50,730 nt of DNA from Bacteroidia bacterium (GTDB taxonomy: Bacteria; Bacteroidota; Bacteroidia; UKL13-3). The stretch is taken from NCBI GenBank assembly GCA_023151275.1, contig JAKLJI010000023.1:1-50730 (forward strand), written 5' to 3'. Below the pieces are notes generated by a model. That model saw nothing but the letters and a program-made list of their open reading frames with translations. It did no database searches and was not told the origin of the DNA. Below, piece by piece: positions 5,055-26,863 of this stretch (position 1 is its first letter; every line of letters begins with the position of its first letter). The translations under genes were made by a program, and so were the position numbers.

Positions 5055-7564
5055 TGACCACCAATCAGGATAATCAAGCTCACCTCTCAACCTTTCATCA
5101 AGGGCAAATATCAGAGGGGCTTAACTTCAAGGTAATTCTTGGTAGATTTTTAGGATACCTACCATATATAGTTATCTCTATAATTACTTCTCTTTCTATC
5201 GCTTTTTTAGTTAATCGGTACTCAGATGAAAAATACATCGTTAAAGGCCAATTCTTAATAAAAGAAAAGGGGGGGAGAAATAGTTTTGATGGAATGGATA
5301 ACTTTCTTCAGGGAATGCAATTGTTAAATACAAATAAAAATGTTGAAAACGAAATTGGCATGATGAAATCAAGGATGGTTACAAGAGAAACTATTTTAAA
5401 ATGTAACTTTCAAATTGATTATTTTGGAACGGGAAAGCTGAAAACAAGTAATTTATATTCAAATTCACCATTCTTGGTAAGTGTTGATTCTAATCATATT
5501 CAACCCTATAACATATCGTTTAATTTAAAATTTTTAGACAAAGAATCATTTTTACTAACAACAACTAAATCTTCCCCTTATCTATGTTATCCGAACAATC
5601 AAACTAGATTAAATGCCCCATTTGATGAAATCAATATTAAAGGGAAAGTTGGAAACGTAATTGAAGGTCCTACCTTTAGATTTAAAATTATCATTACCCA
5701 ACCCGATCTTTTGATGGTAGAAAATGATTACAAATTTAAATTAAATACGGTTGAATCTTTAGTAAAAAGGTATGCTGGAAAAATAACAATAAAAACATTA
5801 AACAAGCAATCAAGTATTGTAGAACTATCTAAAGAAACAAAAACTCCAGAGATTGATGCTGAGTTTATCAATCAACTTATGGAAACATACATCCAAAAGG
5901 GATTAAACGATAAAAATCAAATCTCTGTCAATACAGTAAACTTTATCGACAATTACCTAATCTCAATTTCAGATTCTTTAAAAATCTATGAGCAAAATTT
6001 GAAAGCCTTTAGAACCCAAAATCAAGTAATTGATCTTGGCCAACAAGGAAATCAACTTCTTTCAAAACTTGCGGAAATAGACAATTCAAGGACCGAAGAA
6101 GAAATCAAGTTGAAATATTATGATTATTTACTTGACTACATGATAAAAAACAAATCACTAGACAAAATTGTAGCCCCAAGTGCAATAGGAATTCCAGACC
6201 CCTTATTAAATCAACTATTAGGAAAAATGGTGCAATTGTATGGTGAAAAATCAATTCTGGAACAAACAATGAGTAATAACAATCCAGTATTAATTGAAAA
6301 GATTGAAGCAATTGACTTGGTAAAAAAATCAATAATTGAGAATGTAATTAACATTAAGTCTAGCTCTAAAATTTTTGTAAGTGAAATATCCAAAAAGTTA
6401 AATTTTTTAGAATCTAAAATTTCTAATCTTCCAGAAAAAGAACAAAATCTTCTAAATATTGAAAGAAAATATAAACTAAATGACAAATTACTAAATTATC
6501 TCCTCGAGAAAAAAGCTGAAGCTGGAATAGCTGGGGCATCAAATATTTCTGACAACAGAATTGTAGATTATGCAGTAATTTCAAGTAAAATTTATCCGAA
6601 TGAACCAGCAAATTTTCTGTTAGGACTTATTATAGGGGTCATTTTACCTTTAATAATTATCTTCATTATTGAATTCTTTAATAATAAAATTAACAACCAC
6701 AGTATTCTTCAAAGTGTTAGTAACATTCCAGTTGTAGGAAATATTCCTCACAATAGTAAAGATACTCCACTGGTTATTGCTAATCACCCTAAATCAATGG
6801 TATCTGAAAGTTTTAGAAATTTGCGGTCAAATATTAATTACTTGAGTCATGAAAAAAGAAAAAACACCACTATTCTAGTAACTTCAACAGTTTCTGGTGA
6901 AGGAAAAACTTTTGTGAGTATGAATATTGCTTCAGTGCTTGCAATTGGAGGGTACAAAACCGTTCTAATGGGTGTAGATTTGAGGAAGCCAAAAATTTTC
7001 CAAGATTTTAAACTTGATAACACCCTTGGCATTAGTAATTATGTAATCGGAAAAGTGGGCAAGGATGAAATAATTCAAAACACCAATATTCCAAATCTTT
7101 CGATTATTACTTCGGGTCCAACACCTCCCAATCCTTCAGAATTAATTATGTCAGAAACCTTCAAAAATTTATTGAAGGAGGTTAAAGAGGAATTTGACTT
7201 TGTCATTCTAGATACACCTCCAATTGGATTGGTTGCAGATGGTTTGGATTTGATGCCTTTAGCTGATATTATTCTTTACATGGTTAGACAAAGGATCAGT
7301 CGTAAAAACTATCTAAATATGATTAACGATATCCATTCAAAACAGAAAGAAAAGAAAGTTGGAATTATTTTTAATGATATCAATTTCGCCGCAGTTTATG
7401 GATATGGGTATGGCTCTTATGGATATGGGTATGGCCAAAACAGCTACGGATACGGATATGGATATGGATACGGATATGGATACGGGTACGGATATGGATA
7501 CGGCCAATACGGAGATGTGGAAGTAGACAAAAAGGTTTGGTGGAAAAAATACCTAGGTATCTAA
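5054..7564 (+). CDS. Wzc-like polysaccharide co-polymerase / tyrosine autokinase
   Basis: Inner-membrane protein of 836 residues that should control chain length and export by cycles of tyrosine phosphorylation. An N-terminal Wzz region has TM1 at about 32-53. A long, partly coiled-coil periplasmic section follows. TM2 is at about 520-545. The cytoplasmic BY-kinase domain has Walker A SGEGKT (614-619), Walker A' VLMGVDLRKP (D642) and Walker B FVILDTPP (D720). The C-terminal tail from Tyr782 is an extreme Tyr-Gly repeat with 17 tyrosines before a basic, tryptophan-containing end. Tyrosine clusters are the autophosphorylation target in this family, but here they are unusually long and regular. 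No Wzb-type phosphatase gene is in the window. Confidence 0.93.
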   Translation: MTTNQDNQAHLSTFHQGQISEGLNFKVILGRFLGYLPYIVISIITSLSIAFLVNRYSDEKYIVKGQFLIKEKGGRNSFDGMDNFLQGMQLLNTNKNVENEIGMMKSRMVTRETILKCNFQIDYFGTGKLKTSNLYSNSPFLVSVDSNHIQPYNISFNLKFLDKESFLLTTTKSSPYLCYPNNQTRLNAPFDEINIKGKVGNVIEGPTFRFKIIITQPDLLMVENDYKFKLNTVESLVKRYAGKITIKTLNKQSSIVELSKETKTPEIDAEFINQLMETYIQKGLNDKNQISVNTVNFIDNYLISISDSLKIYEQNLKAFRTQNQVIDLGQQGNQLLSKLAEIDNSRTEEEIKLKYYDYLLDYMIKNKSLDKIVAPSAIGIPDPLLNQLLGKMVQLYGEKSILEQTMSNNNPVLIEKIEAIDLVKKSIIENVINIKSSSKIFVSEISKKLNFLESKISNLPEKEQNLLNIERKYKLNDKLLNYLLEKKAEAGIAGASNISDNRIVDYAVISSKIYPNEPANFLLGLIIGVILPLIIIFIIEFFNNKINNHSILQSVSNIPVVGNIPHNSKDTPLVIANHPKSMVSESFRNLRSNINYLSHEKRKNTTILVTSTVSGEGKTFVSMNIASVLAIGGYKTVLMGVDLRKPKIFQDFKLDNTLGISNYVIGKVGKDEIIQNTNIPNLSIITSGPTPPNPSELIMSETFKNLLKEVKEEFDFVILDTPPIGLVADGLDLMPLADIILYMVRQRISRKNYLNMINDIHSKQKEKKVGIIFNDINFAAVYGYGYGSYGYGYGQNSYGYGYGYGYGYGYGYGYGYGQYGDVEVDKKVWWKKYLGI
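7397..7513 (+). repeat. In-frame hexanucleotide repeat coding the Tyr-Gly tail
   Basis: Units of the form tay-ggn encode Tyr-Gly in blocks of three, three and ten, plus a final YG. Codons alternate between tac/tat and gga/ggg/ggc, so the repeat is imperfect. Because the unit is six bases, slippage would change tail length by whole Tyr-Gly pairs without a frameshift. Confidence 0.9.
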
Positions 7565-7651: not shown

Positions 7652-8809
7652 TTATTTGTACTTCCTTATTGCAGTAACCACCCGTTCTAAATCTTCATCC
7701 TTCAAATTGGACCCACTTGGTAAACATAATCCTTTGTCAAACAAATCTTCAGAAATTCTGCCTCCAAAATACGGCGCATGTTCAAAAACTGGTTGCATGT
7801 GCATGGGTTTCCATAAAGGTCTGCACTCAATGTTTTCCTTTTCCAAACCCAGGCGAATGTCTTCTCTGCTGAAGCCGGCAACTTCTTTTTCAATTAAAAT
7901 ACAACTTAACCAGCGATTTGAATAGGAATCCTTGGGCTCAACCGGAAAACTAATACCCGAGATAGTGCCCAAATTTTCCTTATAATATTCAAAGTTGGCC
8001 CTTCTTTGCCTTACTCTATCATTCAAAACCAGCATTTGCCCCCTGCCAATACCTGCACTCACATTGCTCATTCTGTAATTGTAGCCAATCTCACTGTGTT
8101 GATAGTGGGGCGCAGAATCCCTTGCCTGTGTGGCCAAGAACCTGGCCTTTTTAACAACATCTTCATTATTCGATAGCAATGCTCCTCCTCCACTGGTTGT
8201 AATAATTTTATTTCCATTGAAACTAAGTATTCCAAAATCCCCAAAGGTACCGCAGGATTTATCTTGAAATCTGGACCCCAAGGCTTCTGCCGCATCTTCA
8301 ATTACCGGAATTTCATATTTTCTTGCGATTTCCATGATTTCGTCCATTTTTGCAGGTGTTCCGTACAAATGAACCGGGATAATAGCCTTGGGCATTTTTG
8401 CTTGCAGTTTATTGCCCTTCGAATCGATTCCGCCAGAAATACAAGCTTGAATTGCCTCTTCCAAGTGACAAGGATCCATATTCCATGTTTCAGACTCAGA
8501 ATCAATAAAAACCGGGATGGCCCCTTGGTAGGCAATAGGATTTGCAGATCCGGAAAAGGTGAAACTTTGGCAAATCACATAATCCCCTTGCGATACTCCA
8601 AGCTGAATCAATGAAAGATGAATCGCTGAAGTGCCTGAACTTAATGCAGCCGCATAGCTTGATCCCGTATAGTTGCAGAGATCTTGCTCAAAACCATCAA
8701 CATGAGGTCCTAAAGGAGCAATCCAATTCGTTTCGAAGGCATCCTTTACAAACTCAATTTCTTGACCGCCCATGTGTGGAGATGATAACCAGATTTTTTC
8801 TTTATTCAT
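7652..8809 (-). CDS. DegT/DnrJ/EryC1 sugar aminotransferase, PglE-like
   Basis: PLP-dependent enzyme that should transfer an amino group to a 4-keto-6-deoxy nucleotide sugar. It has 385 residues, full length for the family. PLP contacts visible are the SSGTSAIHL loop (about 58-66), EDAAEALGS (D172) and the Schiff-base lysine K201 in SFNGNKIITTSGGG. That last segment is characteristic of the PglE/LegC type that aminates C4 of UDP-4-keto-sugars. It is the last gene of the long minus-strand run and ends at the bidirectional terminator. With the PglC-like transferase and PglD/NeuD-like acetyltransferase upstream, it suggests a bacillosamine-like (QuiNAc4N) first sugar. A matching retaining 4,6-dehydratase (PglF) is not in the window, so the substrate is inferred. 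Confidence 0.9.
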   Translation of the reverse strand: MNKEKIWLSSPHMGGQEIEFVKDAFETNWIAPLGPHVDGFEQDLCNYTGSSYAAALSSGTSAIHLSLIQLGVSQGDYVICQSFTFSGSANPIAYQGAIPVFIDSESETWNMDPCHLEEAIQACISGGIDSKGNKLQAKMPKAIIPVHLYGTPAKMDEIMEIARKYEIPVIEDAAEALGSRFQDKSCGTFGDFGILSFNGNKIITTSGGGALLSNNEDVVKKARFLATQARDSAPHYQHSEIGYNYRMSNVSAGIGRGQMLVLNDRVRQRRANFEYYKENLGTISGISFPVEPKDSYSNRWLSCILIEKEVAGFSREDIRLGLEKENIECRPLWKPMHMQPVFEHAPYFGGRISEDLFDKGLCLPSGSNLKDEDLERVVTAIRKYK

Positions 8810-8857
8810 TTTTTATCAATTATAGTTTTTTCACGATTGTAATTATTTTGAGTTACA

Positions 8858-9298
8858 CTAATTTTCCAACAAGAGTTTTGTTCGAATTTTTATGCTTAGG
8901 TAGGCAATCTCTACAATTTCAGGAATATTTTTGTTAAATGTCTTAAGCAAAATTTCTCGAATTACTTGGGTGAGTTCAATCTCCTCTCCCTTAAATTTTG
9001 CTGCCAAATGAGCTAATACCAATCGCTCCTCCATTCTTAGGAAAATAAACACTCCCAGCAGCTTATTTGCATCTGGCTCCGATTTTAACAGAAAAAACGA
9101 TTGCTGCTTATAGGATTTGCCTTCCACTTGTATGCTAATATAATTGCCTGTTTTAACCAAAACAGGTTTACCATAAGCCTGTATTGTCTTTCTTATTTTA
9201 CTTTGGTATACATGTTGGCTGGGATGGAAATAGAAAAATTCCTGCAATTGCTCCTCCATGTTGATTGGAAGCTGCGAAACCAAGCGAAACTGATTCAT
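8858..9298 (-). CDS. Small protein of unknown function in the acyl cassette
   Basis: I do not recognise this 146-residue protein. It has no signal peptide or membrane segment and looks soluble and mixed alpha/beta. The second half (LLGVFIFLRMEERLVLAHLAA, then a charged helix) is faintly like the central strand and helix of a GNAT acetyltransferase, but the acetyl-CoA loop R/Q-x-x-G-x-G is absent. It lies 2 bp downstream of the metallo-beta-lactamase-fold gene and 48 bp upstream of the aminotransferase, so it is almost certainly cotranscribed with the acyl cassette. A role as a degenerate acyltransferase or as a partner of a carrier protein is possible but unproven. Confidence 0.7.
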   Translation of the reverse strand: MNQFRLVSQLPINMEEQLQEFFYFHPSQHVYQSKIRKTIQAYGKPVLVKTGNYISIQVEGKSYKQQSFFLLKSEPDANKLLGVFIFLRMEERLVLAHLAAKFKGEEIELTQVIREILLKTFNKNIPEIVEIAYLSIKIRTKLLLEN

Positions 9299-9300
9299 GG

Positions 9301-9915
9301 TTAATACTCCTTTCGGTTTAAGTTGCTTGCCAATACAATTTCACCGTGCCCCGGACAAATTACATCATCCCTTAAGAAAGCACCGAACAGGAAATCGAGG
9401 GTTAGCTGGTTTAGGACCCTATCACCACCCTTTAACTTGGTTACCACAGGGTAGCCTGGCACTAGCGAGTCCCCTGTGAACCAATAATTAAACAATTTAT
9501 AACTCAGGCTCCCGGAATAATGACCAGGCGTCTTGAAAATTTTCATAGAATTCCCTGTTACTAAACCTATCTCATCCAGGCTATCCAAGCTAACACAAGA
9601 AGAGCCGGAAAAAACTACCGGCTCTTCATGATAAAATGAAAGATTTTCTTTTGGATTTTGTAAAGCCTCCAAGGTTTTGCTCGAACCAAATATCTTACAG
9701 TTTGGAAAACACTCCACCAAGCTGTTTACTCCTCCAATATGGTCATAATGAGGATGGGTAAGGAAAACTCCGGCAATTTCTTTTGTACCGGATAAAGCCC
9801 GTCTTACCGGCTCAAACTCTCCAATATCAATCAACCAAACCAACTGAGATTCATTTGGTTCAAGAATAAATACATTGGAGGTGTATTTTTCTAAAGCAAC
9901 CCGCCGGACTCTCAA
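9301..9915 (-). CDS. Metallo-beta-lactamase-fold hydrolase
   Basis: Compact 204-residue hydrolase of the MBL superfamily. The metal ligands are all present: H54-x-H56-x-D58-H59 (THPHYDH), H131 (TPGHYSG), D148 (FTGDSL) and H189 (CPGHGE). The protein therefore looks active with two metals. The fold includes glyoxalase II-like thioesterases and lactonases. Between an acyl carrier protein gene upstream (4-bp overlap, ATGA) and an unknown gene downstream, the most economical guess is a thioesterase that releases or edits an acyl group on a carrier protein. That is inference; no substrate can be read from the sequence. Confidence 0.85.
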   Translation of the reverse strand: MRVRRVALEKYTSNVFILEPNESQLVWLIDIGEFEPVRRALSGTKEIAGVFLTHPHYDHIGGVNSLVECFPNCKIFGSSKTLEALQNPKENLSFYHEEPVVFSGSSCVSLDSLDEIGLVTGNSMKIFKTPGHYSGSLSYKLFNYWFTGDSLVPGYPVVTKLKGGDRVLNQLTLDFLFGAFLRDDVICPGHGEIVLASNLNRKEY

Positions 9916-10130
9916 CCCATGAAGTTCAAAATATCACCAACAGTCTTGAATTCTTTGATTTGTTCTCCAGTTAGCTTTTTGCTAAACTCCTCATCACATA
10001 GCACAATTAAGGATAGTTTGGCCATTGAATCGTACTCAGCAACATCGCTAAGCAAAGTTGATTCATTTAAGGTACCTGATTCAATTTCGAGTGCATCTTC
10101 TAATAATGCAATTTTTTCTTGATTTGTCAT
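9912..10130 (-). CDS. Acyl carrier protein, first of two
   Basis: A 72-residue acidic helical protein with the size and pattern of an acyl carrier protein. The phosphopantetheine site should be Ser35 in YDSMAKLSL, where Met replaces the usual Leu after D-S. It lies 20 bp downstream of one FabG-like reductase and overlaps the metallo-hydrolase by 4 bp. A dedicated carrier protein in a surface-sugar locus implies that an acyl chain is built or held here apart from housekeeping fatty-acid synthesis. The other carrier protein at 11660-11896 is clearly different in sequence, so the two probably serve separate substrates. Confidence 0.85.
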   Translation of the reverse strand: MTNQEKIALLEDALEIESGTLNESTLLSDVAEYDSMAKLSLIVLCDEEFSKKLTGEQIKEFKTVGDILNFMG

Positions 10131-10150
10131 TGTATATTAATTTAGATTGA

Positions 10151-10906
10151 TTAATTAATTAAAAACCCCCCATCTATTGGAAGTGCATGCCCTGAGATAA
10201 ATCTAGAACGTTCTGAAAGTAAGAACATAATCAGATTTGAAACGTCTTCCGGCTCCCCTAAACCCAAAAACTGCCTTTGCAGTGTTGGGTCAGGCTTGCC
10301 CTCACTCGCTGCAAGTAACTCCTGAAAGATGGGAGTATTTGTTTGGGCTGGCACAACTGAGTTTAATCGTATTCCTTTGGGAGCTAATTCTTTTGCTAGG
10401 CATCGAATAGAGGCATCAACCGCAGCTTTTGATCCAGCATAAGCCGTCACGCTTGGCGCTCCCCTTTCAGATGCAATTGAAGAAATCTGAACTATACTTA
10501 ATCCGGATTGGTAATTCTTCTTTTTGCAAATATTCTTTATAAATTCAAGGAAGGAAAAGTAATTGCTGGTAAATATTTCCTGAACATGTTCTGAAGTTAA
10601 CAAGTTGAGCGGCCTCCTCGACCTCATTCCGACACAGTTCACATAACCCGTAATGGGACCTTCCCCTTCAACCAAGGTCTGAATCAAATTAGGAATTTTA
10701 TCGAGTTGAGTTACATCAAAATGAATATAGGTATGTCTAGCATTTCCTAACTCATTTTTAAGAGATTCTAAACGCCCTTGGTTTGAACCAATTAAAGCCA
10801 AACGAGCCCCGCATTGATTCAATTGAATTGCCAACTGTTTGCCAATTCCAGCACTTGCACCCGTGATTAAAATCAATTTACCCTCAAGATTCAAGAAGGA
10901 TTTCAT
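10151..10906 (-). CDS. FabG-like short-chain dehydrogenase/reductase (copy 1)
   Basis: NAD(P)-dependent oxidoreductase of about 251 residues, probably reducing a 3-oxoacyl group on a carrier protein. It carries the cofactor loop TGASAGIG (15-22), catalytic Ser in ISSIAS (about 142-143), Y156 and K160 (YAGSK), and the typical SDR C-terminal SGHALPIDGGF. I use the ATG at 10906. A start at 10933 would overlap the upstream reductase and add residues unlike the family. It lies 1 bp after that second reductase and is its paralogue, with Y and K at identical positions. The usual NNAG motif is replaced by N-C-V-G. Confidence 0.9.
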   Translation of the reverse strand: MKSFLNLEGKLILITGASAGIGKQLAIQLNQCGARLALIGSNQGRLESLKNELGNARHTYIHFDVTQLDKIPNLIQTLVEGEGPITGYVNCVGMRSRRPLNLLTSEHVQEIFTSNYFSFLEFIKNICKKKNYQSGLSIVQISSIASERGAPSVTAYAGSKAAVDASIRCLAKELAPKGIRLNSVVPAQTNTPIFQELLAASEGKPDPTLQRQFLGLGEPEDVSNLIMFLLSERSRFISGHALPIDGGFLIN

Positions 10907-10907
10907 A

Positions 10908-11663
10908 TTATAGGTTGTACCCTCCGTCAACAACTAACTGAACTCCTGTGATAAACCTGGAGGCATCACTTAAAAGAAATCCAACAGATTGGGCTAAATC
11001 TTCAGGCTCAATTACTCCTAAAAACTGGTTGGCTAAGTCATTATCTCCAGAAAGAGCCATATTATTTTGAATAAATTCGGCATTCATATCTGAACTAACC
11101 CAACCTTTTTGGATTGAATTTACTCTGATTTTGCGTTCACCAAGTTCTTTTGCCATGCAGCGAACACTTGCATCTAATGCTGCTTTTGAAGCGGCATAAG
11201 CAGTTTTTGATTTCAAGCCTCGCGTGCTCGAAACTGAGGAAATTGCTACTATGCTTCCACCAGAAGCGAAAATACTCTTTCTTGTAATCAGCCGAACCAA
11301 CTCAATAAACGCTACTGTGTTCACTTCCAACATGGAAGTTGTAAACGTAGGGTTACTTAACGATATGGGACGAACTCCTCCTTTACCACCACAAAATACA
11401 AAACCGAAAATAGGTGCATAGTTAGGAAGCTTTGCTTTCAAACTTTCCTCAAGGAGTTCTGGCTTTGTGTAATCTACAAGCATTGTATCCTGGGAGGCAA
11501 GTTTTGGGTGCTGTTTAATTTCATCTAATCTTTCCTCTGTACAATCTGTCAAAACCAATCTTGCCCTTTGTTCCAACAACAATAAGGAAATTGCCATCCC
11601 TGTAGCCGAGCCAGCGCCTGAAATAAAAATTGTTTTACCTGCTAAACCTGAGAATCCATTCAT
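10908..11663 (-). CDS. FabG-like short-chain dehydrogenase/reductase (copy 2)
   Basis: SDR of 251 residues with Y156 and K160 (YAASK) and the ISSVSS catalytic serine segment, ending in TGVQLVVDGGYNL. Its cofactor loop is atypical: S-G-A-G-S-A-T-G (15-22) instead of TGxxxGxG, and the NNAG motif reads C-G-G-K-G-G. These changes could alter cofactor preference or substrate. It overlaps the second carrier-protein gene by 4 bp (ATGA). Two adjacent FabG paralogues suggest either two reduction steps or one reductase and one dehydrogenase acting on the same acyl chain. The sequence cannot decide which. Confidence 0.88.
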   Translation of the reverse strand: MNGFSGLAGKTIFISGAGSATGMAISLLLLEQRARLVLTDCTEERLDEIKQHPKLASQDTMLVDYTKPELLEESLKAKLPNYAPIFGFVFCGGKGGVRPISLSNPTFTTSMLEVNTVAFIELVRLITRKSIFASGGSIVAISSVSSTRGLKSKTAYAASKAALDASVRCMAKELGERKIRVNSIQKGWVSSDMNAEFIQNNMALSGDNDLANQFLGVIEPEDLAQSVGFLLSDASRFITGVQLVVDGGYNL

Positions 11664-11896
11664 TTTGAAGATTCCTTTAATCGCTTTACTAAGCTCTCTA
11701 TGGCTTCAATTGAATTAAAATTAGCTGGTCCTAATTCCGTAACCCGAATTGCAATTGAATATTCATCATTCAATTCTGAAATTATGCTTACAATATCAAA
11801 AGAATCAAGAATTCCATCGTCAATCAATGCCTTTTCGTTCAGAAAATCCACATCAGGGCGGATTTCGGTTAATATTTCATTTATTCTATTAATCAT
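11660..11896 (-). CDS. Acyl carrier protein, DltC-like (second of two)
   Basis: A 78-residue carrier protein with the phosphopantetheine serine at S32 in LIDDGILDSFDIVSIISEL. This stretch is typical of carrier proteins annotated as D-alanine carrier-like (DltC-like) that pair with a stand-alone adenylating enzyme. It is translationally coupled on both sides: it overlaps the GNAT gene upstream by 8 bp and the reductase downstream by 4 bp. The adenylating enzyme at 12698-14242 is its likely loading partner. Known DltC delivers D-alanine to teichoic acid; here the acceptor would be a sugar, as an inference from the locus. Confidence 0.87.
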   Translation of the reverse strand: MINRINEILTEIRPDVDFLNEKALIDDGILDSFDIVSIISELNDEYSIAIRVTELGPANFNSIEAIESLVKRLKESSK

Positions 11897-12701
11897 AATT
11901 AAACTTTATCATTGATGCAGTTGATTTCCCTGCATACACAAAACCAAACCGTGCATATAATTTAATAGCGGGTTCATTATCGTGAATTACCCAGAGTTGA
12001 TATTTGGTTGAAGGTCCGTTCCACCCATGTTTTAAAAAACGATCAACCAAAGAATTTGCAATTCCTCTTCCTCTAAATTCTTCGGATACAGCAATATGTC
12101 CCAACCAATTGATGTTATTTTTGTGCTCCATTTGCAACACACCTGCAAGTTTACCTTCAATATGCGCAAAAAGCAATTGCTTGTTCATAGCGTATGTGCG
12201 AATTTCCTCCAAACTTCGCCAATCACCAGTATATCTGTCCAAATCTTTGGAGAATAAGTGATAAGCAAAATTAACTGCTAAATCATCATTCAATAGCTCA
12301 ATAACGACATCGGGATTAAGGGTTACCGGGATTACTTTAGCACCTGCAAGTGCCAAATTATCACGTTCTAAGTGTTTTGCAAAACCCTGCTTCTCCCAAA
12401 AACTAGCAGCTTTCTCCGGATAACCTAAGGAACCCCTATAAACAATTTCAAGTACGAGAGGCTTATCAACCGGAAGGCTAAACTTCTCCTCGACTGAATT
12501 TACATGGTAGTAAATCTGATAACAAAACCCTTTATCAACAAGAAGGCAACAATTTGACAGGGATGAATCAACCCATAAATTTCCACGTTGAATTTGCTCT
12601 TCTAAAACGGAGGGCATCAAGAAATTATTGGTTAGATTTCCTGGCAATTGAAACTTAAGAAGAAGTTCTTCTAATTCTTGCAATGAATCTATTTGCTTCA
12701 T
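11889..12701 (-). CDS. GNAT-family N-acyltransferase
   Basis: A 270-residue protein with an N-terminal region of about 130 residues of unclear fold and a C-terminal GNAT domain (about 135-270). The acyl-CoA or acyl-pantetheine loop is HIAVSEEFRGRGIANSLVDR, with R-G-R-G-I-A fitting the R/Q-x-x-G-x-G/A rule. The gene lies exactly between the adenylating enzyme (4-bp overlap) and its carrier protein (8-bp overlap). That position makes it the best candidate for the enzyme that moves the activated acyl or aminoacyl group from the carrier protein to an amino group. GNAT members using carrier-bound donors are known. The acceptor is not evident. Confidence 0.85.
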   Translation of the reverse strand: MKQIDSLQELEELLLKFQLPGNLTNNFLMPSVLEEQIQRGNLWVDSSLSNCCLLVDKGFCYQIYYHVNSVEEKFSLPVDKPLVLEIVYRGSLGYPEKAASFWEKQGFAKHLERDNLALAGAKVIPVTLNPDVVIELLNDDLAVNFAYHLFSKDLDRYTGDWRSLEEIRTYAMNKQLLFAHIEGKLAGVLQMEHKNNINWLGHIAVSEEFRGRGIANSLVDRFLKHGWNGPSTKYQLWVIHDNEPAIKLYARFGFVYAGKSTASMIKFNYD

Positions 12702-14242
12702 ACAACATTTGCCTTCAATTCTCCATTACTATACCATTTCTTTATTTCGGTTCGGTCAATCTTACCATTCAAATTATAAGGCATTGTTTCCATTTTTATG
12801 AAAGTATTGGGATACATAAACTTGGAAATCTTATCCTTTAATTCCGCAATAATGTATTTTTTATCTGCTAGTTGACCTTGGAACACTAAAATTATCTTTT
12901 TTTCTTCATGATCATAAAAGCAAAATGAAGCTTCAATTTTGTCCAAAGCGTTCACCAAAATTTCAATCTCACCTAATTCAACACGCTGCCCCATATGCTT
13001 CACCTGATTGTCCTTCCTGGAAAGAAACATAATCTCTCCCAATTCATTGTATTTTGCCAAATCTCCGGTTCGGTATATTTTTTCTGGAAAAAATGGATTC
13101 AAAGGATTTTGACAAAAAGCTTCTTCCGTTTTCTCGGGATTGTTGTAATAACCTAAGGCCAAGCAACAACCTTTCACACATAACTCACCTTGCTGGTCGG
13201 GTGCGGTTACTAACTTATTATCCTCGTCAAGTAGGAGTATCTCCGAATTGGGGAAAGGAATGCCAATTGGCAATACTTCATCATCCAAAAATCTCTTTTC
13301 AATCTTGTAGTAGGTACAAACTGAGGTAATCTCTGTAGGCCCATAGAGGTTTACAAACTGGGTATCCGGAAGATTCTTGCGCCAGTAATTCAGTACTTTA
13401 TTGTGCATTACCTCTCCTGAAAACATGACATGCTTCAATTGAGTTGGTTTCTTCTCCTCAAATGCCTGGGAATTTGCCAGAAGAGCAATCGCAGCTGCCG
13501 ACCAAAGGATGGTATCTATTTTTTGCTCAATTAAATAATCAACCAATTTACCTTGAAAAAGAAAATGGCTTTTGGGAAGAATATGCATCGTTGCTCCACA
13601 ACTCAGGGTGCAATAAATATCCTTTATAGAGGCGTCAAAATAAAATGGATTCTGGTTTCCAAAAATATTTTCTTCCCTAAATCCAAAAATGTTCACCAAA
13701 TTATCCGTCATATCAATTACGGATTGATGGCAGGTAATTACCCCCTTTGGAATACCGGTAGAACCTGAGGTAAATGTGGCATAAATGGGGTCACGGTCAA
13801 TAATTCTTCTTCGTATGGTTGATAAAACAGATTGATCTTCCGGAGTCAAAATGGCTTCCTCATAACGAACCTGAAAAAGACCAGGGGCTACAGAATTAAC
13901 AAATTCAATATCTTTATCCAAAACCACTGAGGCAATTGGATTTAGTGTTTTTAATATCAACTCAATTCTGCCTTTCGGCATTTGAATATCAATCGGCACA
14001 TAAAAGTTTCCGCTTGCCGCCACTCCTAAGAAAGAAACCAAGCTCTCCAAATTCCTATCTACAAAAACGACAACCGGATTACGAATGGACTGTTTAAATT
14101 GAAGAGCGATTTCAGTCCCAATCGATCTCGAGTAATTCAATAAATCCTTGTAGGTAATACTTTTTGTTTCATCTACAAAAGCAGGTTTAGATGGCACTCT
14201 GCTTGCTGATTTTTCAAGATATTCTAATACAGAATAATTCAT
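12698..14242 (-). CDS. Stand-alone adenylating enzyme, DltA/NRPS A-domain type
   Basis: ATP-dependent enzyme that should adenylate a carboxylate and load it on a carrier protein. It has 514 residues, a full A-domain with no carrier domain attached. The core motifs are in order: A3 TSGSTGIPKG (158-167), A4 FDAS (202-205), A5 NLYGPTE (298-304), A7 YRTGDL (390-395), A8 around 418-426 (GQRVELGEIE) and A10 NGKIDR with K494. Asp203 in A4 corresponds to the residue that binds the alpha-amino group in amino-acid-activating A-domains, which points to an amino acid rather than a fatty acid. It is immediately downstream of the KAS III gene and overlaps the GNAT gene. No DltB or DltD is nearby, so this is not a teichoic-acid system. 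Confidence 0.9.
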   Translation of the reverse strand: MNYSVLEYLEKSASRVPSKPAFVDETKSITYKDLLNYSRSIGTEIALQFKQSIRNPVVVFVDRNLESLVSFLGVAASGNFYVPIDIQMPKGRIELILKTLNPIASVVLDKDIEFVNSVAPGLFQVRYEEAILTPEDQSVLSTIRRRIIDRDPIYATFTSGSTGIPKGVITCHQSVIDMTDNLVNIFGFREENIFGNQNPFYFDASIKDIYCTLSCGATMHILPKSHFLFQGKLVDYLIEQKIDTILWSAAAIALLANSQAFEEKKPTQLKHVMFSGEVMHNKVLNYWRKNLPDTQFVNLYGPTEITSVCTYYKIEKRFLDDEVLPIGIPFPNSEILLLDEDNKLVTAPDQQGELCVKGCCLALGYYNNPEKTEEAFCQNPLNPFFPEKIYRTGDLAKYNELGEIMFLSRKDNQVKHMGQRVELGEIEILVNALDKIEASFCFYDHEEKKIILVFQGQLADKKYIIAELKDKISKFMYPNTFIKMETMPYNLNGKIDRTEIKKWYSNGELKANVV

Positions 14243-15339
14243 TATAATTCTTTTGCTGATTGAATAATTCCTTCCTCAAATAGAGTATCATCCTCTACGA
14301 TCGGGAAGATAGTAGCAACATCCAAAGTTGCTGAAAAGATTCCCCATGAAAGGCCTACACCAAAACCACAAACAAGTGTTTTAATTTGGCCATTTACCTG
14401 GTTTCCATACTTATCACATAATGTAAGTGCAGCGGAGGCGCCAGAGGTATTCCCATAACGGTCTAATGAAATCGGAAACTTTTCAGTCGGGAACTTCAAT
14501 TTCTTGGCAATTTGCTGAAGAATTAAGCCATTGGCCTGATGAAAGGCAAAACAATCATAATCCTCGATACTTGTTTTTGTTTGGGCGAAGAAATCCTTTA
14601 CAACCCTAGGCACATCTGTAATGGTGAAGGTGAAAACAGAGGTTCCTTGCATCACAGAATGAAGCAAAGTTCGTTCAACTCCATCTGAATAAATTTCAGG
14701 CTCAGGATTTGCATCAATGTTTCGATAGCCACCACCTGGAACAATAAGGTAGCGGTAACCGGTGCCATCAGAACGTAATAAGGACTTCACTCCTTCGTGT
14801 GGTTCTGCTGTTCGTTCCAATAAAATCGCAACGCTGCATTCTCCAATCAGCATGAGGGAAGCTTTGTCCTTCGGATAGGTGGTTTTACCAGCTGTATCTC
14901 CCAGAATTAATAGAGCTCGGTCGATATCTGAATTTTGCATCATAGAGGCCGCAACCTGAATACCATAAACAAAGGATGAGCAACCTAAACTAATATCAAA
15001 AGTTGCACACTCAATTGACAAACCAAGTCGTTTGTGAATGATTGAACTCGAGCCTGGCCTTCTATAATCCGGACTTGTCGTACCCATGATTAAAGCGCCA
15101 ATTTGATTAGACTCAATACTCAACTTTTCCAACAACAATTTCGCAGCAGTTGTACCCATATCTGAAGCAGTTTGATAATGGGTGGTACGACGGGTTTGGG
15201 TTATTCCGGTCATTTGCATGAATTTTTCTACCTCCTCATGACCAAATAACTCTTTGTAAGAACTTGTTGGAATAATGTTCTTAGGAACCACTGTTTGAAT
15301 ACCAGCAATTTTTATATTGGGAAAACTAAACTTTGCCAT
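14242..15339 (-). CDS. 3-oxoacyl-ACP synthase III (KAS III, FabH-like)
   Basis: Decarboxylating condensing enzyme that joins a short acyl-CoA to malonyl-carrier protein. The 365-residue protein has a complete C-H-N triad: C120 (DISLGCSSF), H267 (FAFHQANG) and N297 (RYGNTSGAS). It is somewhat longer than housekeeping FabH (about 320 residues). With the two reductases and the first carrier protein it could make a 3-oxo- or 3-hydroxyacyl group such as hydroxybutyryl. Similar KAS III, reductase and carrier sets next to an aminotransferase make the acyl part of modified viosamine in Pseudomonas syringae flagellin glycosylation. The parallel is by gene content only. Its stop shares a base with the next start. 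Confidence 0.92.
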   Translation of the reverse strand: MAKFSFPNIKIAGIQTVVPKNIIPTSSYKELFGHEEVEKFMQMTGITQTRRTTHYQTASDMGTTAAKLLLEKLSIESNQIGALIMGTTSPDYRRPGSSSIIHKRLGLSIECATFDISLGCSSFVYGIQVAASMMQNSDIDRALLILGDTAGKTTYPKDKASLMLIGECSVAILLERTAEPHEGVKSLLRSDGTGYRYLIVPGGGYRNIDANPEPEIYSDGVERTLLHSVMQGTSVFTFTITDVPRVVKDFFAQTKTSIEDYDCFAFHQANGLILQQIAKKLKFPTEKFPISLDRYGNTSGASAALTLCDKYGNQVNGQIKTLVCGFGVGLSWGIFSATLDVATIFPIVEDDTLFEEGIIQSAKEL

Positions 15340-15342
15340 AAT

Positions 15343-15993
15343 CTAAAAATCAACCTTTTTTGCTGGATTTCCAAAATAAAGTAATCCATCTTTTGTTTTT
15401 TTCATTACATAACTACCTGCACCAATACGCGTATTGTTGCCAATCTGGATGTTTTGCAATACAACTGAACCAATTCCGAATAAATTTAAATCTCCTATTT
15501 TCGCGCCACCAGAGATTCGAGTTAGGGGCATAAAAACATTGTAACTACCAACCACAACATCATGAGCTAAAGCAGAAATACTGTTAAATTGATTGAAATC
15601 ACCTATAGTTACATCGCAAGAAAATGTACAGCCCCGTACAATCACATTTCCCCTGCCTATTTTCAATGAGGGCAAATCCGCAAAAAATGCCTCCGGATGA
15701 ATGAGATTGGGGTATTTAACATGTTCATTGGTAATTGAATCGACCAATTTCTTTATTATAGAAGAATTACCAATGGCAAACACTACATGAATCTCTTCCG
15801 ACCAACTATTTAATTCAGAGAATCCACCCAATACCTTTCCAAAATGTGATACAGAAGTTCCTGCGGAAATTCCATCGTCAAAAAAACCGATAACATCCCA
15901 TTGTGGTCTAATTTCATTGATTCTATTGATGAGGCAGCAAACTTCCTTCCCAAAACCTCCGGCCCCGTAAATTGCAATATTCTTCAAAACCAA
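15343..15993 (-). CDS. PglD/NeuD-type sugar N-acetyltransferase
   Basis: A 216-residue protein with an N-terminal Rossmann-like region (IAIYGAGGFGKEV, about 6-18) and a C-terminal left-handed beta helix of hexapeptide repeats (about 95-205). H144 in SALAHDVVVG lines up with the catalytic histidine of PglD, which acetylates the 4-amino group made by PglE. NeuD, a related O-acetyltransferase of sialic acid, is the alternative. Both readings are possible here because the locus has PglC/PglE-like and NeuABC-like genes. Position next to the PIG-L and KAS III genes favours a role on the amino sugar of the acyl cassette. Confidence 0.85.
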   Translation of the reverse strand: MVLKNIAIYGAGGFGKEVCCLINRINEIRPQWDVIGFFDDGISAGTSVSHFGKVLGGFSELNSWSEEIHVVFAIGNSSIIKKLVDSITNEHVKYPNLIHPEAFFADLPSLKIGRGNVIVRGCTFSCDVTIGDFNQFNSISALAHDVVVGSYNVFMPLTRISGGAKIGDLNLFGIGSVVLQNIQIGNNTRIGAGSYVMKKTKDGLLYFGNPAKKVDF

Positions 15994-15994
15994 A

Positions 15995-16675
15995 CTACTT
16001 TATTTCACGGATTAATGCGAAGGCTTCTGCCCTTTCTGCACCTACTGTTGCCCCTCTAAATTTGGCCAAAGCTTCCAAAGCCTCAATTGATCTTGAATTT
16101 GGAAATTTTCTCAGTTGAGATTTATAACATTCCATAGCCTGAAGCTTCATTTGGAACTCAGCGATCGTAACTTGCTCATAAACAGTAGGAACAAATGATT
16201 CTCCGGCAAAAGGATATGCCCATTCTGTTTCCGAAAGTGTTTCATAGGCATAAATGGTTTTTACAGAATATTTTCCGACAGGTCTAGCAGCAACCATTGC
16301 TGCATCAAAAATTGCTTTATGATCATTGTGTATATCTCCTCGAAATGGGATATACAAAATTTCAGCAGACACTTTTTTAATCAGGTTTGAAATGGCTTCA
16401 GCCATTTTAAAGCCTGGATACTGATCGAGAGCTGGAGCAGGAAAATCCTCAAAAAACACCTCAGATACGCCTAAAAGATTGCACGCAGTTCGTGCTTCCG
16501 ATCTCACATTTTCCAATTTCTCAAGGGTATACTTAACAGGATCAGACTTGCAGGCATTTGTAAGAATACCTACGAAAACCTCGTCGCCCTGTTGAATTCT
16601 TTTAAAAATTGTTGCACCGCAACCCAATACCTCATCATCCGGATGTGGAGCTAAAACTAATATCTTTTTCTTCAT
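15995..16675 (-). CDS. PIG-L (LmbE) family N-deacetylase
   Basis: Zinc-dependent deacetylase fold, 226 residues. The metal and catalytic motif is A-P-H11-P-D13-D14-E15 near the N-terminus, with a second ligand region in FRGDIHNDH. Family members remove acetyl groups from GlcNAc-containing small molecules or glycolipids (PIG-L, MshB, BshB). It lies 1 bp upstream of the PglD/NeuD-type gene and 18 bp downstream of a GNAT gene. A deacetylase surrounded by N-acyltransferases suggests that an N-acetyl group is removed and replaced by another acyl group. This replacement model is inference. Confidence 0.88.
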   Translation of the reverse strand: MKKKILVLAPHPDDEVLGCGATIFKRIQQGDEVFVGILTNACKSDPVKYTLEKLENVRSEARTACNLLGVSEVFFEDFPAPALDQYPGFKMAEAISNLIKKVSAEILYIPFRGDIHNDHKAIFDAAMVAARPVGKYSVKTIYAYETLSETEWAYPFAGESFVPTVYEQVTIAEFQMKLQAMECYKSQLRKFPNSRSIEALEALAKFRGATVGAERAEAFALIREIK

Positions 16676-16693
16676 CTACCTTCTATCTATAAA

Positions 16694-17650
16694 TTAAAAT
16701 ACATCTGAATCACCCATGTTCAAATTCCACAATCTAAAATCCAAAAGTGAAGAATGCGAAATACTAAATGGCAATAAACCAACATAAGCTTGGGGAGTAG
16801 ACAAAATAAATCCATTTCTCTCGAACTTTAAATGATCCTTACTAAATAAACTCTTCCAGATATTTATTGAACTAATTTCAACCTTTAAACCTGAACAAAC
16901 GTTAAACAAAACTGACTTCAAAATTGAAAAATCATCTGCAAAGAATTCCAGAATGTTTAGATTATAGGCACCACTTTTTGAATCAAAATAAACTTTAGCA
17001 ATAATTAAAAATCTAACATCGGATATAGTGCCAAAATATTTCAAATAATTAACTTCAGGCTTATTTGAAAATCTCCAATTCAAATAATTTGATGACTTTG
17101 AAACCCAAATGCCATTGTTCCTCTCATTAAAACCAGCAATAAAATTCTCATGCTCAAGGGTAAAATCATTAAACTTGAACTGTTCAAATCCATCTACAGA
17201 TTGTTGCTTGCTGGAAATTGTTTGGAATTTAGCTTCCAAACTATGTTGAACTCCTAAATTTTCCCAAGATAAACTATGCACAAATCCTCCATGCGAATTG
17301 TTGTTAGGAAATCCCCAAACACTCGAATACTGCTCAGAATCTAAGTCTGAGTATAATGCCTTGGCAAGACTTTTAAAAACTCCCTTCCCTTCAAAATTAG
17401 GATGAGTCATAGTCCCCAGAGAAAGTGCAGATTTCACCTCAATTCCATCGACAACTAATGAAACCGGCGATACCGCATATTGTCCTATAAGCATATCATT
17501 ATCCCACATTAGCTTAATCTTTTTTTGGCCAGCAGGATTCTGAATAAATCTCCAATGCCACAAATCCAAAGAGTATTTTTGTTTAAAAACCAATTCAAAA
17601 AGGTCTTTGATGAAAATTTCATCGCCATCCTGGTAATCACGCATTTCCAT
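16694..17650 (-). CDS. GNAT-family acetyltransferase
   Basis: A 318-residue protein with an N-terminal GNAT domain (about 1-150): DLFELVFKQKYSLDLWHWRF, then LSLGTMTHPNFEGKGVFKSLAKAL, where E-G-K-G-V-F is the acetyl-CoA loop. The C-terminal half has no motif I recognise. Proteins of this type sit in many O-antigen and capsule loci and are presumed to acylate sugar amino groups. It starts just 2 bp downstream of the PglC-like transferase gene. The start is Met1, with Met3 as an equally good alternative. Confidence 0.82.
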   Translation of the reverse strand: MEMRDYQDGDEIFIKDLFELVFKQKYSLDLWHWRFIQNPAGQKKIKLMWDNDMLIGQYAVSPVSLVVDGIEVKSALSLGTMTHPNFEGKGVFKSLAKALYSDLDSEQYSSVWGFPNNNSHGGFVHSLSWENLGVQHSLEAKFQTISSKQQSVDGFEQFKFNDFTLEHENFIAGFNERNNGIWVSKSSNYLNWRFSNKPEVNYLKYFGTISDVRFLIIAKVYFDSKSGAYNLNILEFFADDFSILKSVLFNVCSGLKVEISSINIWKSLFSKDHLKFERNGFILSTPQAYVGLLPFSISHSSLLDFRLWNLNMGDSDVF

Positions 17651-17652
17651 AG

Positions 17653-18219
17653 TTAATCAATTTTGGGTTTGTTTAAAAATTTCTTTTCTCCGAATACAAT
17701 TACTAAAACCGTTTTAACAATAATTATTAAATCCATATAAAAGGATTTGTTATAATGGTAGAATTTATCAAAATAGTCCTTTTCGGGCCATGATAAATAA
17801 ATAGAACCAGAAACTCCAGCTAGGCTTGTTAAACCAGGCTTATCAAGGAATCTCTCATTACATAAATTCTGTTTCTCAGCCACAAAATCTACACAAGGTC
17901 TTGGTCCAACAATTGACATATCGCCCAACAAAACATTGATTAATTGTGGCAATTCATCAATTTTGAATCTTCTCAGGTATTTACCAACGGAGGTAATCTC
18001 AGGATCATTCGCAAAAACTTGTACTACCTCCCTTTTGCGATTTGTCATTGTTCTAAATTTAAAAACCTTAAATCGCTTCCTATTTAAACCAAGTCTTTCT
18101 TGCATAAAAAATACAGGACCATCAGAATCAAGCTTTATCCATATTGCAACGATAATTAGAGGAAAAAATAAAATGGTTAAAGCAATAAAGGCTGAAAAAA
18201 AATCAAACAATCGTTTCAT
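17653..18219 (-). CDS. Initiating sugar-phosphate transferase, PglC-like
   Basis: Monotopic phosphoglycosyl transferase that puts the first sugar phosphate on undecaprenyl phosphate at the cytoplasmic face. The protein has about 188 residues, the short PglC-type without the extra membrane bundle of WbaP. It has a re-entrant hydrophobic N-terminus (FDFFSAFIALTILFFPLIIV), then QERLGLNRKRFKVFKFRTM, the catalytic Asp-Glu pair D88-E89 in KIDELPQ, and GDMSIVGPRP. I use the ATG at 18219, which gives the standard MKRLFDF start 10 bp after the upstream gene. The longer start at 18261 would overlap that gene by 32 bp. It probably initiates the repeat unit of the whole locus. Confidence 0.92.
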   Translation of the reverse strand: MKRLFDFFSAFIALTILFFPLIIVAIWIKLDSDGPVFFMQERLGLNRKRFKVFKFRTMTNRKREVVQVFANDPEITSVGKYLRRFKIDELPQLINVLLGDMSIVGPRPCVDFVAEKQNLCNERFLDKPGLTSLAGVSGSIYLSWPEKDYFDKFYHYNKSFYMDLIIIVKTVLVIVFGEKKFLNKPKID

Positions 18220-19429: not shown

Positions 19430-20640
19430 TAACTTTCTAGAATCGATTTATACAAGTAAATATATTTATTAAGCTGGACCTTTACATCAAAGTGTAAAAG
19501 GGCAGATTTCCTAATAATTTCTTTACTATTACTAGAACTTAACAATTCACCAATAGCAGTTGAGACCCCTTGTATATCTCCAATTGATACAATTCTACCC
19601 AAATTATCATTCTTTATTAACTCCGGACTTGCAGTTGCATTATAAACAATTGAGGGCTTTCCACACATAAAGCCTTCAACTGAAGTAAGTCCAAAAGTCT
19701 CAAGTTTTGACAAGTTCAATACAACAGAGGCTAAATTATACCAATCAACAAGTTCATTAACATTCTCTGTTCTTGGAACACCTATTACATTTGTTGGGAG
19801 TCCGAACATTAGTTTCCTTGGTAAACCGACAAGGACAATTACAAGATTTTTGTTAATTACCTTAGACAGCTCAATATAGTCATTAAATCCTTTTTGCCCA
19901 GCCCATGAAGTTGAAGCCGCTAGCAAAATTGTCTTTCCTTGTAATTGGTACTTTCTTAACAACTCTGTATTGGGTTCCTTTGGACAAAAGATTTCCGAAT
20001 CTACGCCATTAAGAATAACCTCAATATTATGGCAACTTAGAAATGACTCCTTTACTAAATCGCCTAACCAATTAGAAACTGGAACGATTGTTATTGGAAA
20101 ACTAGTAAATAATTCCTTCTTTAACTGGTAACTTTCAAAGGACCTATCAAAGAAAAAAGAAGATGGATAATTATTTTTCTTTGGGCAATCAAAGCATTGT
20201 GTTTTCCATCTATCACAATTAATATCACTAAAATATGTGCAATGCCCAGTAAAAGACCAACAATCATGAAGTGTCCAGACAATTTTACACTTTTGTAATT
20301 TAGATAATGATTCAAATAAAATTTTATAATTAATATAGTATCCATGTAAATTATGCAAATGAATTATATCTGGTTTAATTTCTTGGATATATTTAATTAA
20401 TTTTTCTGTAGGAGTTACTGAACTTAAACCATGTTTTCCAAAAATTCTTGAAAAAAATAGATGTTTGTAAATTTCAAAATTAGTCCCAATTCTAAAAAGC
20501 TTAGACTTTGAAGAATTTGCTTTACGTCCATATGCTACAAAACTTTCCCATCCTTCCTGTATTACTTTCAGGCCAATTTGCTCAGAGATTCTTCCTGTAG
20601 AACCCATATTTGCGGAGGAATTCACAAGCAATATTTTCAT
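19429..20640 (-). CDS. Glycosyltransferase, GT4 type
   Basis: A 403-residue GT-B enzyme. The N-terminus has LVNSSANMGSTGRISEQIG and the conserved PDIIHLHNLHGYYINY. The C-terminal domain has GADSEIF-like NGVDSEIFCPK, KTILLAASTSWAGQKGF and ETFGLTSVEGFMCGKPSIVYN with the usual glutamates. This HLHNLHGYY subtype, with a cysteine-rich WTLHDCWSFTGHC segment, is common in colanic-acid and O-antigen clusters. Donor and acceptor are not readable. It overlaps the downstream and upstream genes by one to four bases, so it is part of the same operon. Confidence 0.88.
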   Translation of the reverse strand: MKILLVNSSANMGSTGRISEQIGLKVIQEGWESFVAYGRKANSSKSKLFRIGTNFEIYKHLFFSRIFGKHGLSSVTPTEKLIKYIQEIKPDIIHLHNLHGYYINYKILFESLSKLQKCKIVWTLHDCWSFTGHCTYFSDINCDRWKTQCFDCPKKNNYPSSFFFDRSFESYQLKKELFTSFPITIVPVSNWLGDLVKESFLSCHNIEVILNGVDSEIFCPKEPNTELLRKYQLQGKTILLAASTSWAGQKGFNDYIELSKVINKNLVIVLVGLPRKLMFGLPTNVIGVPRTENVNELVDWYNLASVVLNLSKLETFGLTSVEGFMCGKPSIVYNATASPELIKNDNLGRIVSIGDIQGVSTAIGELLSSSNSKEIIRKSALLHFDVKVQLNKYIYLYKSILES

Positions 20641-25723: not shown

Positions 25724-25728
25724 ACGTT

Positions 25729-26862: not shown

Positions 26863-26863
26863 T

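Follow-up and report, generated by a model that had tools for sequence, protein, structure and literature searches.

In this study, we analysed a 50,730-nucleotide stretch of DNA from a Bacteroidia bacterium (hereafter the window), and in particular 14 successive minus-strand open reading frames (ORFs) spanning positions 7652-18219. Unusual N-acyl groups are found on surface polysaccharides and, to our knowledge, the genes for many of these have not been assigned. Judging by gene families and layout, the block is very probably set in a known Bacteroidota polysaccharide frame, in which it would represent a different, swappable R-group module. A first-pass annotation of this DNA had proposed a dedicated carrier-based acyl or aminoacyl module that serves a first sugar of the PglC/PglD/PglE type, and the gene families support this proposal. 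Our best overall explanation, which joins the frame to an aminoacyl-primed module and in which every substrate is predicted, stands very nearly at an even balance of belief and doubt.

A probable sugar frame of a known kind, with an exchanged module

Window proteins were assigned to families by hidden Markov model (HMM) searches, using Pfam and NCBIfam models with their curated cutoffs. By these families, a PglC-type initiator, a PglD-type transferase and a DegT aminotransferase flank the genes for β-ketoacyl-acyl carrier protein synthase (KAS), acyl carrier protein (ACP) and ketoreductase. In transcription order, the block encodes a PglC-type protein, the GCN5-related N-acetyltransferase (GNAT) GNAT2, a PIG-L protein, NeuD1, KAS III (hereafter also KAS3), a DltA-like ligase, GNAT1, ACP2, the short-chain dehydrogenases/reductases (SDRs) SDR2 and SDR1, ACP1, a metallo-β-lactamase-fold (MBL) hydrolase, a protein of 146 amino acids (U146) and a DegT/LegC-family aminotransferase. 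Gene spacing ranges from -26 to +20 bp, except for 48 bp between the aminotransferase and U146 genes, and the PglC ORF could reach 18261 if a TTG start is used. The tight minus-strand packing and the enzyme families given by the first-pass annotation were borne out by the ORFs, the HMM matches and the motifs, which include HPHYDHIGG in the MBL hydrolase, HPDDE in PIG-L, YxxxK in both SDRs and DS in both carriers.

The nearest known system that we found is the O-polysaccharide locus of the fish pathogen Flavobacterium psychrophilum, compared here by layout. According to the accessible part of its description, the R-group genes wfpB-wfpG lie there with pglE, pglF and fnl genes, wfpC-F coding for KAS, ACP, KAS and reductase (PMC6519341). 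The PglD-like WfpG is proposed to move 3,5-dihydroxyhexanoyl from ACP to UDP-Qui2NAc4NH2, and the PglC-like WfpB to start the chain; the R-group genes are not the same in other strains (PMC6519341, same part). Both loci have a PglC-like initiator, a PglE aminotransferase, a PglD-like transferase, ACP, KAS, a ketoreductase and L-N-acetylfucosamine (L-FucNAc) genes. On the other hand, the wfp set is described with a pair of KAS, a single ACP and a single reductase, and the part of the source available mentions neither an adenylating enzyme nor a second carrier, nor an enzyme for capping. Its product is 3,5-dihydroxyhexanoyl, whereas that of the window would be a 3-hydroxy-4-amidoacyl group.

The PglE-like aminotransferase (7652-8809), predicted to place the 4-amine on a UDP-4-keto sugar, scores 402.5 bits with the LegC model TIGR04181, below the cutoff of 420. 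Copies 66-70% identical to it occupy the same module end in relatives with DltA (L028, L029, L056 and L062) and without it (L031, L034 and L038). NeuD1 (15343-15993), a PglD/VioB-type hexapeptide-repeat N-acyltransferase, passes the NeuD/PglD/VioB test (TIGR03570, 162.5 against a cutoff of 160.8), and its kin in the PDB are a pilin glycosylation protein, VioB and UDP-N-acetylbacillosamine N-acetyltransferase. The initiator (17653-18219) is a phosphoglycosyl transferase of the Bac_transf family (PF02397), in a variant common to L028. In L034, a locus from the same family, the matched ORFs, to which our listing is confined, read PglC-NeuD1-KAS-ACP-KAS-SDR-U146-NeuD2-aminotransferase, and blastp gave no match there to the ligase, ACP2 or GNAT1. 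Since L034 has the same PglC/NeuD...aminotransferase frame, the R-group module would be the exchanged part.

No PglF/WbpM-type dehydratase was found among the 14 genes. The best candidate is a protein of 654-658 amino acids on contig C55, which outscores all others of the genome with Polysacc_synt_2 but lies below the PseB cutoff, and which we label PglF/WbpM provisionally; the FnlA of the window (30742-31773) has its best match in the L-FucNAc model. In two other genomes (G012 and G694), a long FnlA/WbpM-like gene lies near the module, as judged by blastp and length only. We also considered the aminotransferase and NeuD1 as parts of a nonulosonic acid set at 38-44 kb (NeuC, NeuB, PseF-like). 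This assignment was rejected because the neighbour at 42201-43223 is TviC-like and not LegB-like (322 vs 146 bits), and because in relatives the aminotransferase comes after the acyl module.

The proposed amino-acid branch: ligase, second carrier and cap slot

The DltA-like ligase (12698-14242) contains a full-length AMP-binding domain (PF00501). It scores 308.7 bits with the amino-acid adenylation model TIGR01733 (cutoff 317.4) and 292-294 bits with the DltA models (cutoffs 476-560), thus failing the DltA equivalog test. Its top PDB match is LgrA, with which the Asp of its FDxS motif aligns. In the adenylation domains of nonribosomal peptide synthetases (NRPSs), this Asp binds the alpha-amine and marks enzymes with amino-acid substrates. 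It is kept in all nine readable loci (10 sequences), as is a Lys four positions further on, whichever cap type they have. Reading the pocket by eye at what we take to be the GrsA positions, we obtained approximately DAK(L/M)MSLSV in eight of these nine loci, L022 being the different one; the other pocket residues are likewise conserved in 8/9. The pocket Lys recalls glutamate codes, a weak hint of an acidic amino acid, and the residue that is presumably the DltA pocket Cys is Ser in the window ligase. ACP2 (11660-11896), the predicted aminoacyl holder, is DltC-like, with 31.9 bits (E 9.9e-8) against a DltC cutoff of 68 and 19.5 bits for PP-binding.

Between dltA and acp2, the readable loci have a GNAT in seven cases (partial in L025) and a formyltransferase in two (L026 and L027). 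Co-occurrence was scored by blastp (E<=1e-3) over 21 distinct comparison loci (L020-L039 and L062/L063; L055 is L020 in reverse). Contig ends truncate five of these loci, L021 and L023 before the cap slot, and also L025, L026 and L029. Wherever GNAT1, the formyltransferases or ACP2 had a homologue, the locus also carried DltA. This exchange of GNAT for formyltransferase at one slot suggests, as its simplest reading, that the enzyme in this slot adds an acetyl or formyl cap to the amine of aminoacyl-ACP2. A comparable step is known from the first module of LgrA, which formylates its own aminoacyl, and both slot formyltransferases carry N-x-H...D, which we take to be the motif of their family.

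GNAT1 (11889-12701, PF00583), the predicted cap enzyme of the window, was modelled with AlphaFold2 as a tandem GNAT (mean predicted local distance difference test score, pLDDT, 86.3). Its first structural match is mycothiol synthase (Z 17.6, root-mean-square deviation 5.4, 253 residues aligned), matches within 1 being tied, and its C-terminal half resembles N-alpha-acetyltransferases at a Z of about 15. The L063 copy of GNAT1, part of that of L062, was omitted from the alignment. Fragments were also left out of the two structure alignments made in this study.

Proposed condensation and reduction

KAS III (14242-15339) has an intact C120-H267-N297 triad, as the first-pass annotation had stated. 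All 11 DltA-linked loci have KAS3 proteins that group in a single clade (support 100/99; sequences of 300 amino acids or less were excluded). This clade is separate from the KAS pairs of wfp-like loci, with those of L033, L035-L037 and L039 falling outside it, and from the two other KAS III-like proteins of the genome; its nearest outgroup is the KAS3 of L024. The cassette KAS3s read KFMxM (EKFMQM in the window) where the FabH-like protein L002 of this genome, which the HMM search did not name, has EWITTR. The W and R at this position presumably bind CoA in E. coli FabH, and their loss makes a carrier-bound primer more likely than acetyl-CoA.

ACP1 (9912-10130), predicted to carry acyl or malonyl groups, gives weak ACP matches (PP-binding 19.8 bits, just below the cutoff of 20.8). 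It is 60-78% identical to its counterparts in L020, L022, L024, L026-L029 and L062, less so in other loci, and its DS is conserved in the rows aligned. Both SDRs are FabG-like, as first annotated, and retain YxxxK; they differ in their cofactor motif. SDR1 (10151-10933), the putative ketoreductase, has an intact TGxxxGIG, whereas in SDR2 (10908-11663) the nucleotide-binding glycine motif is degenerate, being broken in various ways in 8/8 loci aligned (the SDR alignments include seven comparison loci), with the SDR fold match retained. This suggests that SDR2 is an obligate partner of SDR1. The MBL-fold hydrolase (9301-9915, PF00753), whose HxHxDH motif aligns, is a possible carrier-clearing thioesterase.

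Other loci showed further arrangements of these enzymes. In L030-L032, which are other sugar R-group loci, KAS III-like proteins that have partly or wholly lost the Cys-His-Asn triad (L030:7800-8831, L031:7909-8868 and L032:9653-10654) adjoin an intact KAS III and resemble chain-length-factor or PqsB-type partners. In the Bacillota locus L024, which gave no match to the ligase, a protein of 446 amino acids with no Pfam family (L024:8645-9982) has tandem ACPs on one side and the sister KAS III on the other, and is a possible alternative primer-loading enzyme.

Recurrence of the module in other genomes

Every locus that is readable throughout (L020, L026-L029 and L062/L063, the last from another class) has the core order KAS3-DltA-cap-ACP2-SDR2-SDR1-ACP1-MBL, each with NeuD1 immediately before KAS3; L022 keeps the order from KAS3 to ACP1, with one extra KAS and one extra SDR inserted. 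Since this order recurs in other genomes, the block is not a chance assembly. The ligase was found in 7/64 genomes of the family, counting its own, and in 1/80 of the family of G694, namely G694 itself. Scoring the best three candidates per genome among the rows listed, we found it in its own genome only among 395 genomes of the class sample (E<=1e-110), and in 2/395 of the phylum sample, its own and G694 (E<=1e-90). Such a patchy spread suggests that the module has been exchanged horizontally between genomes.

We rejected the view, taken in the first-pass annotation, that the 14 genes are one fixed unit: the only other locus in which we saw all of them in order is L028, where there is one additional NeuD, five further loci being truncated by contig ends. 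Nor is the block self-contained, as had been claimed, given that it has no dehydratase of its own and that PglC, GNAT2 and PIG-L vary. Over the comparison loci, homologues of the PIG-L family N-deacetylase (15995-16675, PF02585) occur only in L026 and L028, at 61-65% identity, and a homologue of GNAT2 (16694-17650, Acetyltransf_9, PF13527) only in L028. With the window PglC, that of L028 shares 54% identity and 10 others share 34-40%; among these 10, nine are 44-72% alike. From these two loci, PIG-L, GNAT2 and this divergent PglC look like a linked add-on. A second NeuD is present in L027-L029, and also in L034, which has no DltA.

Had the module routinely been separated from glycan genes, its link to a sugar would be in doubt, but it lies beside them wherever the surroundings could be read, save in L022. 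Glycosyltransferases, PglC or the aminotransferase adjoin it in L020, L021, L025, L027, L028 and L062/L063, and PIG-L and/or the aminotransferase in the short contigs L026 and L029. L022 begins at the end of a contig, and no glycan gene was recognised there beside the module; L023 is not long enough to judge. Past the aminotransferase, L056 (12122-16483) and L057 (3118-8212) have a second block with another DegT-type aminotransferase, along with a NeuD-like stretch in L056, possibly for a second modified sugar.

U146 and the surrounding locus

For U146 (8858-9298), the searches gave no Pfam or NCBIfam match. Its AlphaFold2 model (pLDDT 69.4) matches GNAT structures at Z <=6.5 and has no Foldseek match at E<=0.001; blastp found homologues in L020, L026-L029 and L034 among the comparison loci. 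The GNATs of the first-pass annotation are borne out by HMM for GNAT1 and GNAT2; the 146-residue protein is only weakly GNAT-like by predicted fold.

In the rest of the window, which belongs to a polysaccharide locus, there are export genes, several GT4-type glycosyltransferases and L-FucNAc-type (FnlA, FnlB, WecB), NeuC/NeuB/PseF-like and TviB/TviC-like genes. At 20637-21749 it encodes a protein of 370 amino acids with no family match, which recurs, at times twice, in related glycan loci. Adjacent ATP-grasp (RimK-like) and asparagine-synthase-like genes at 22815-26877, beside a PGA_cap-like gene, may amidate a sugar acid or attach an amino acid to one. Furthermore, a Wzc-type protein at 5054-7564 has a long YGYGYG tail near its C-terminus.

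Discussion

Starting from what was observed directly (gene order, families, active-site residues, co-occurrence, the slot swap and the KAS3 clade), we propose a pathway whose substrates and products are predicted. A PglF/WbpM-type dehydratase encoded elsewhere and the PglE-like aminotransferase would generate UDP-Qui2NAc4NH2. The ligase would charge ACP2 with an amino acid, whose amine GNAT1 would acetylate, with N-formylation in those relatives that have a slot formyltransferase. KAS III would then perform a single condensation between this N-capped aminoacyl-ACP2 primer and malonyl-ACP1, and SDR1, perhaps with SDR2, would reduce the ketone to yield a 3-hydroxy-4-amidoacyl group. NeuD1 would put this group on the 4-amine of UDP-Qui2NAc4NH2 and PglC would place the sugar onto the lipid carrier, while the MBL hydrolase may free carriers that have become blocked. 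The PIG-L and GNAT2 of this genome would probably alter an N-acyl group further, and the divergent PglC would read the result.

The first-pass annotation had spoken of a hydroxyacyl or aminoacyl group; the slot swap, the clade and the co-occurrence refine this towards an N-capped aminoacyl primer that would then be extended. We consider the primer-plus-extension step somewhat short of evenly balanced. Slightly more tentative is the full picture of an NRPS-polyketide synthase hybrid made entirely of discrete proteins, which would place a statine-like 3-hydroxy-4-amido acid on the first lipid-linked sugar, with an acetyl or formyl cap that is exchanged between species and varies the antigen.

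Several observations weigh against this pathway. The wfp comparison is by layout alone and not by sequence, the sister KAS3 of L024 comes without DltA, and the CoA-site residues are also lost in the non-DltA KAS3s of wfp-like loci, leaving the aminoacyl primer unproven. Two SDRs exceed the need of a single reduction, and the ligase misses the curated adenylation and DltA cutoffs. Moreover, both slot formyltransferases fall below every NCBIfam cutoff, and that of L027 matches sugar formyltransferases (54.6 bits) better than the LgrA formylation domain (39 bits), so that the substrate of the slot enzyme could be a sugar amine.

Other assignments of the two carriers were also weighed. A two-part amide, in which GNAT1 would join 3-hydroxybutyryl, made by KAS III and the SDRs on ACP1, to the amino acid on ACP2 and NeuD1 would transfer the N-(3-hydroxyacyl)aminoacyl group, appears unlikely to us. 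It is compatible with two carriers and a GNAT, and such groups exist, the accessible part of one source describing both N-[(R)-3-hydroxybutyryl]-L-alanyl on Qui4N and N-acetyl-alanyl on Qui4N and Qui3N (PMC3210612). However, the joining enzyme would be a formyltransferase in two of the nine loci, and yet KAS III, both SDRs and ACP1 remain there. The formyltransferase family uses formyl-tetrahydrofolate rather than acyl-ACP, and KAS III is unlike FabH at what we take to be the CoA site. We find it just as improbable that the carriers serve two separate groups, a capped aminoacyl from ACP2 and a 3-hydroxyacyl from ACP1, placed by NeuD1 and GNAT2/NeuD2 on two distinct amines, such as those at C4 and, once PIG-L has acted, at C2 of one and the same sugar. 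Although the two carriers, the PIG-L and GNAT2 of the window and L028, and the second NeuD of L027-L029 would fit, the loci L020, L027 and L062/L063, readable to PglC, have the full module without PIG-L or GNAT2, a second NeuD also occurs in the DltA-free L034, and the single clade of DltA-linked KAS3s suggests a coupled step.

Still less credible is an adenylating enzyme that handles a non-amino acid or acts in salvage, in a module whose product is just a short hydroxyacyl group, like that of the F. psychrophilum wfp locus. The sub-cutoff ligase scores would agree with it, as would the shorter AMP-binding protein beside the KAS3 pairs of L030-L032, but the FDxS Asp is kept in 9/9 readable loci and an amine-modifying type of enzyme adjoins the ligase in 9/9. 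The aminoacyl-primed, extended module remains our working explanation.

Parts of this explanation have counterparts in known systems. In DltA/DltC, a ligase and a carrier activate D-alanine; the window shares the stand-alone ligase and small carrier, and DltA and DltC are among its best NCBIfam matches, but it scores far below the DltA cutoffs, and no match to DltB or DltD was found among the 14 genes. The initiation module of the linear gramicidin enzyme LgrA has adenylation, carrier and formylation, and LgrA is also a PDB match of the L027 formyltransferase; the window differs from it in having separate proteins, no condensation domain, a KAS III and reductases to follow, and a glycan locus around them. 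Campylobacter PglF-PglE-PglD-PglC constitute the bacillosamine pathway, with which the window has an aminotransferase, a hexapeptide N-acyltransferase and a PglC-type initiator in common, although its acyl group would come from a carrier instead of acetyl-CoA.

The parallel first suggested, the viosamine island of Pseudomonas syringae pv. tabaci (vioA, B, R, S, T, M and acp), is not the nearest that we found, the wfp layout being closer. According to the accessible part of its description, it has an aminotransferase, an N-acyltransferase, KAS III, a reductase and ACP for N-(3-hydroxy-1-oxobutyl) viosamine, but it differs in serving a flagellin glycan, in its dTDP sugar, in its seven genes without an adenylation branch and in the methyltransferase VioM (PMC3927599). 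Among the 14 genes we found no glycosyltransferase or methyltransferase match that would correspond to the large transferase VioT or to VioM. In the open-access literature, nothing among the matches listed came closer to a sugar locus with an adenylation, ACP and KAS set than PMC6519341, and none of those listed concerned 4-amino-3-hydroxy acids in polysaccharides. Nor did any of the matches listed report an aminoacyl-primed branch in a sugar locus, and this branch is possibly new.

Altogether, the module ties assembly-line chemistry, namely adenylation, N-capping, condensation and reduction, to the decoration of a sugar. The exchange of GNAT and formyltransferase at a fixed slot amounts to a natural experiment on which step each enzyme performs, and this reading would aid the prediction of O-antigen or capsule structures from sequence in Bacteroidota.

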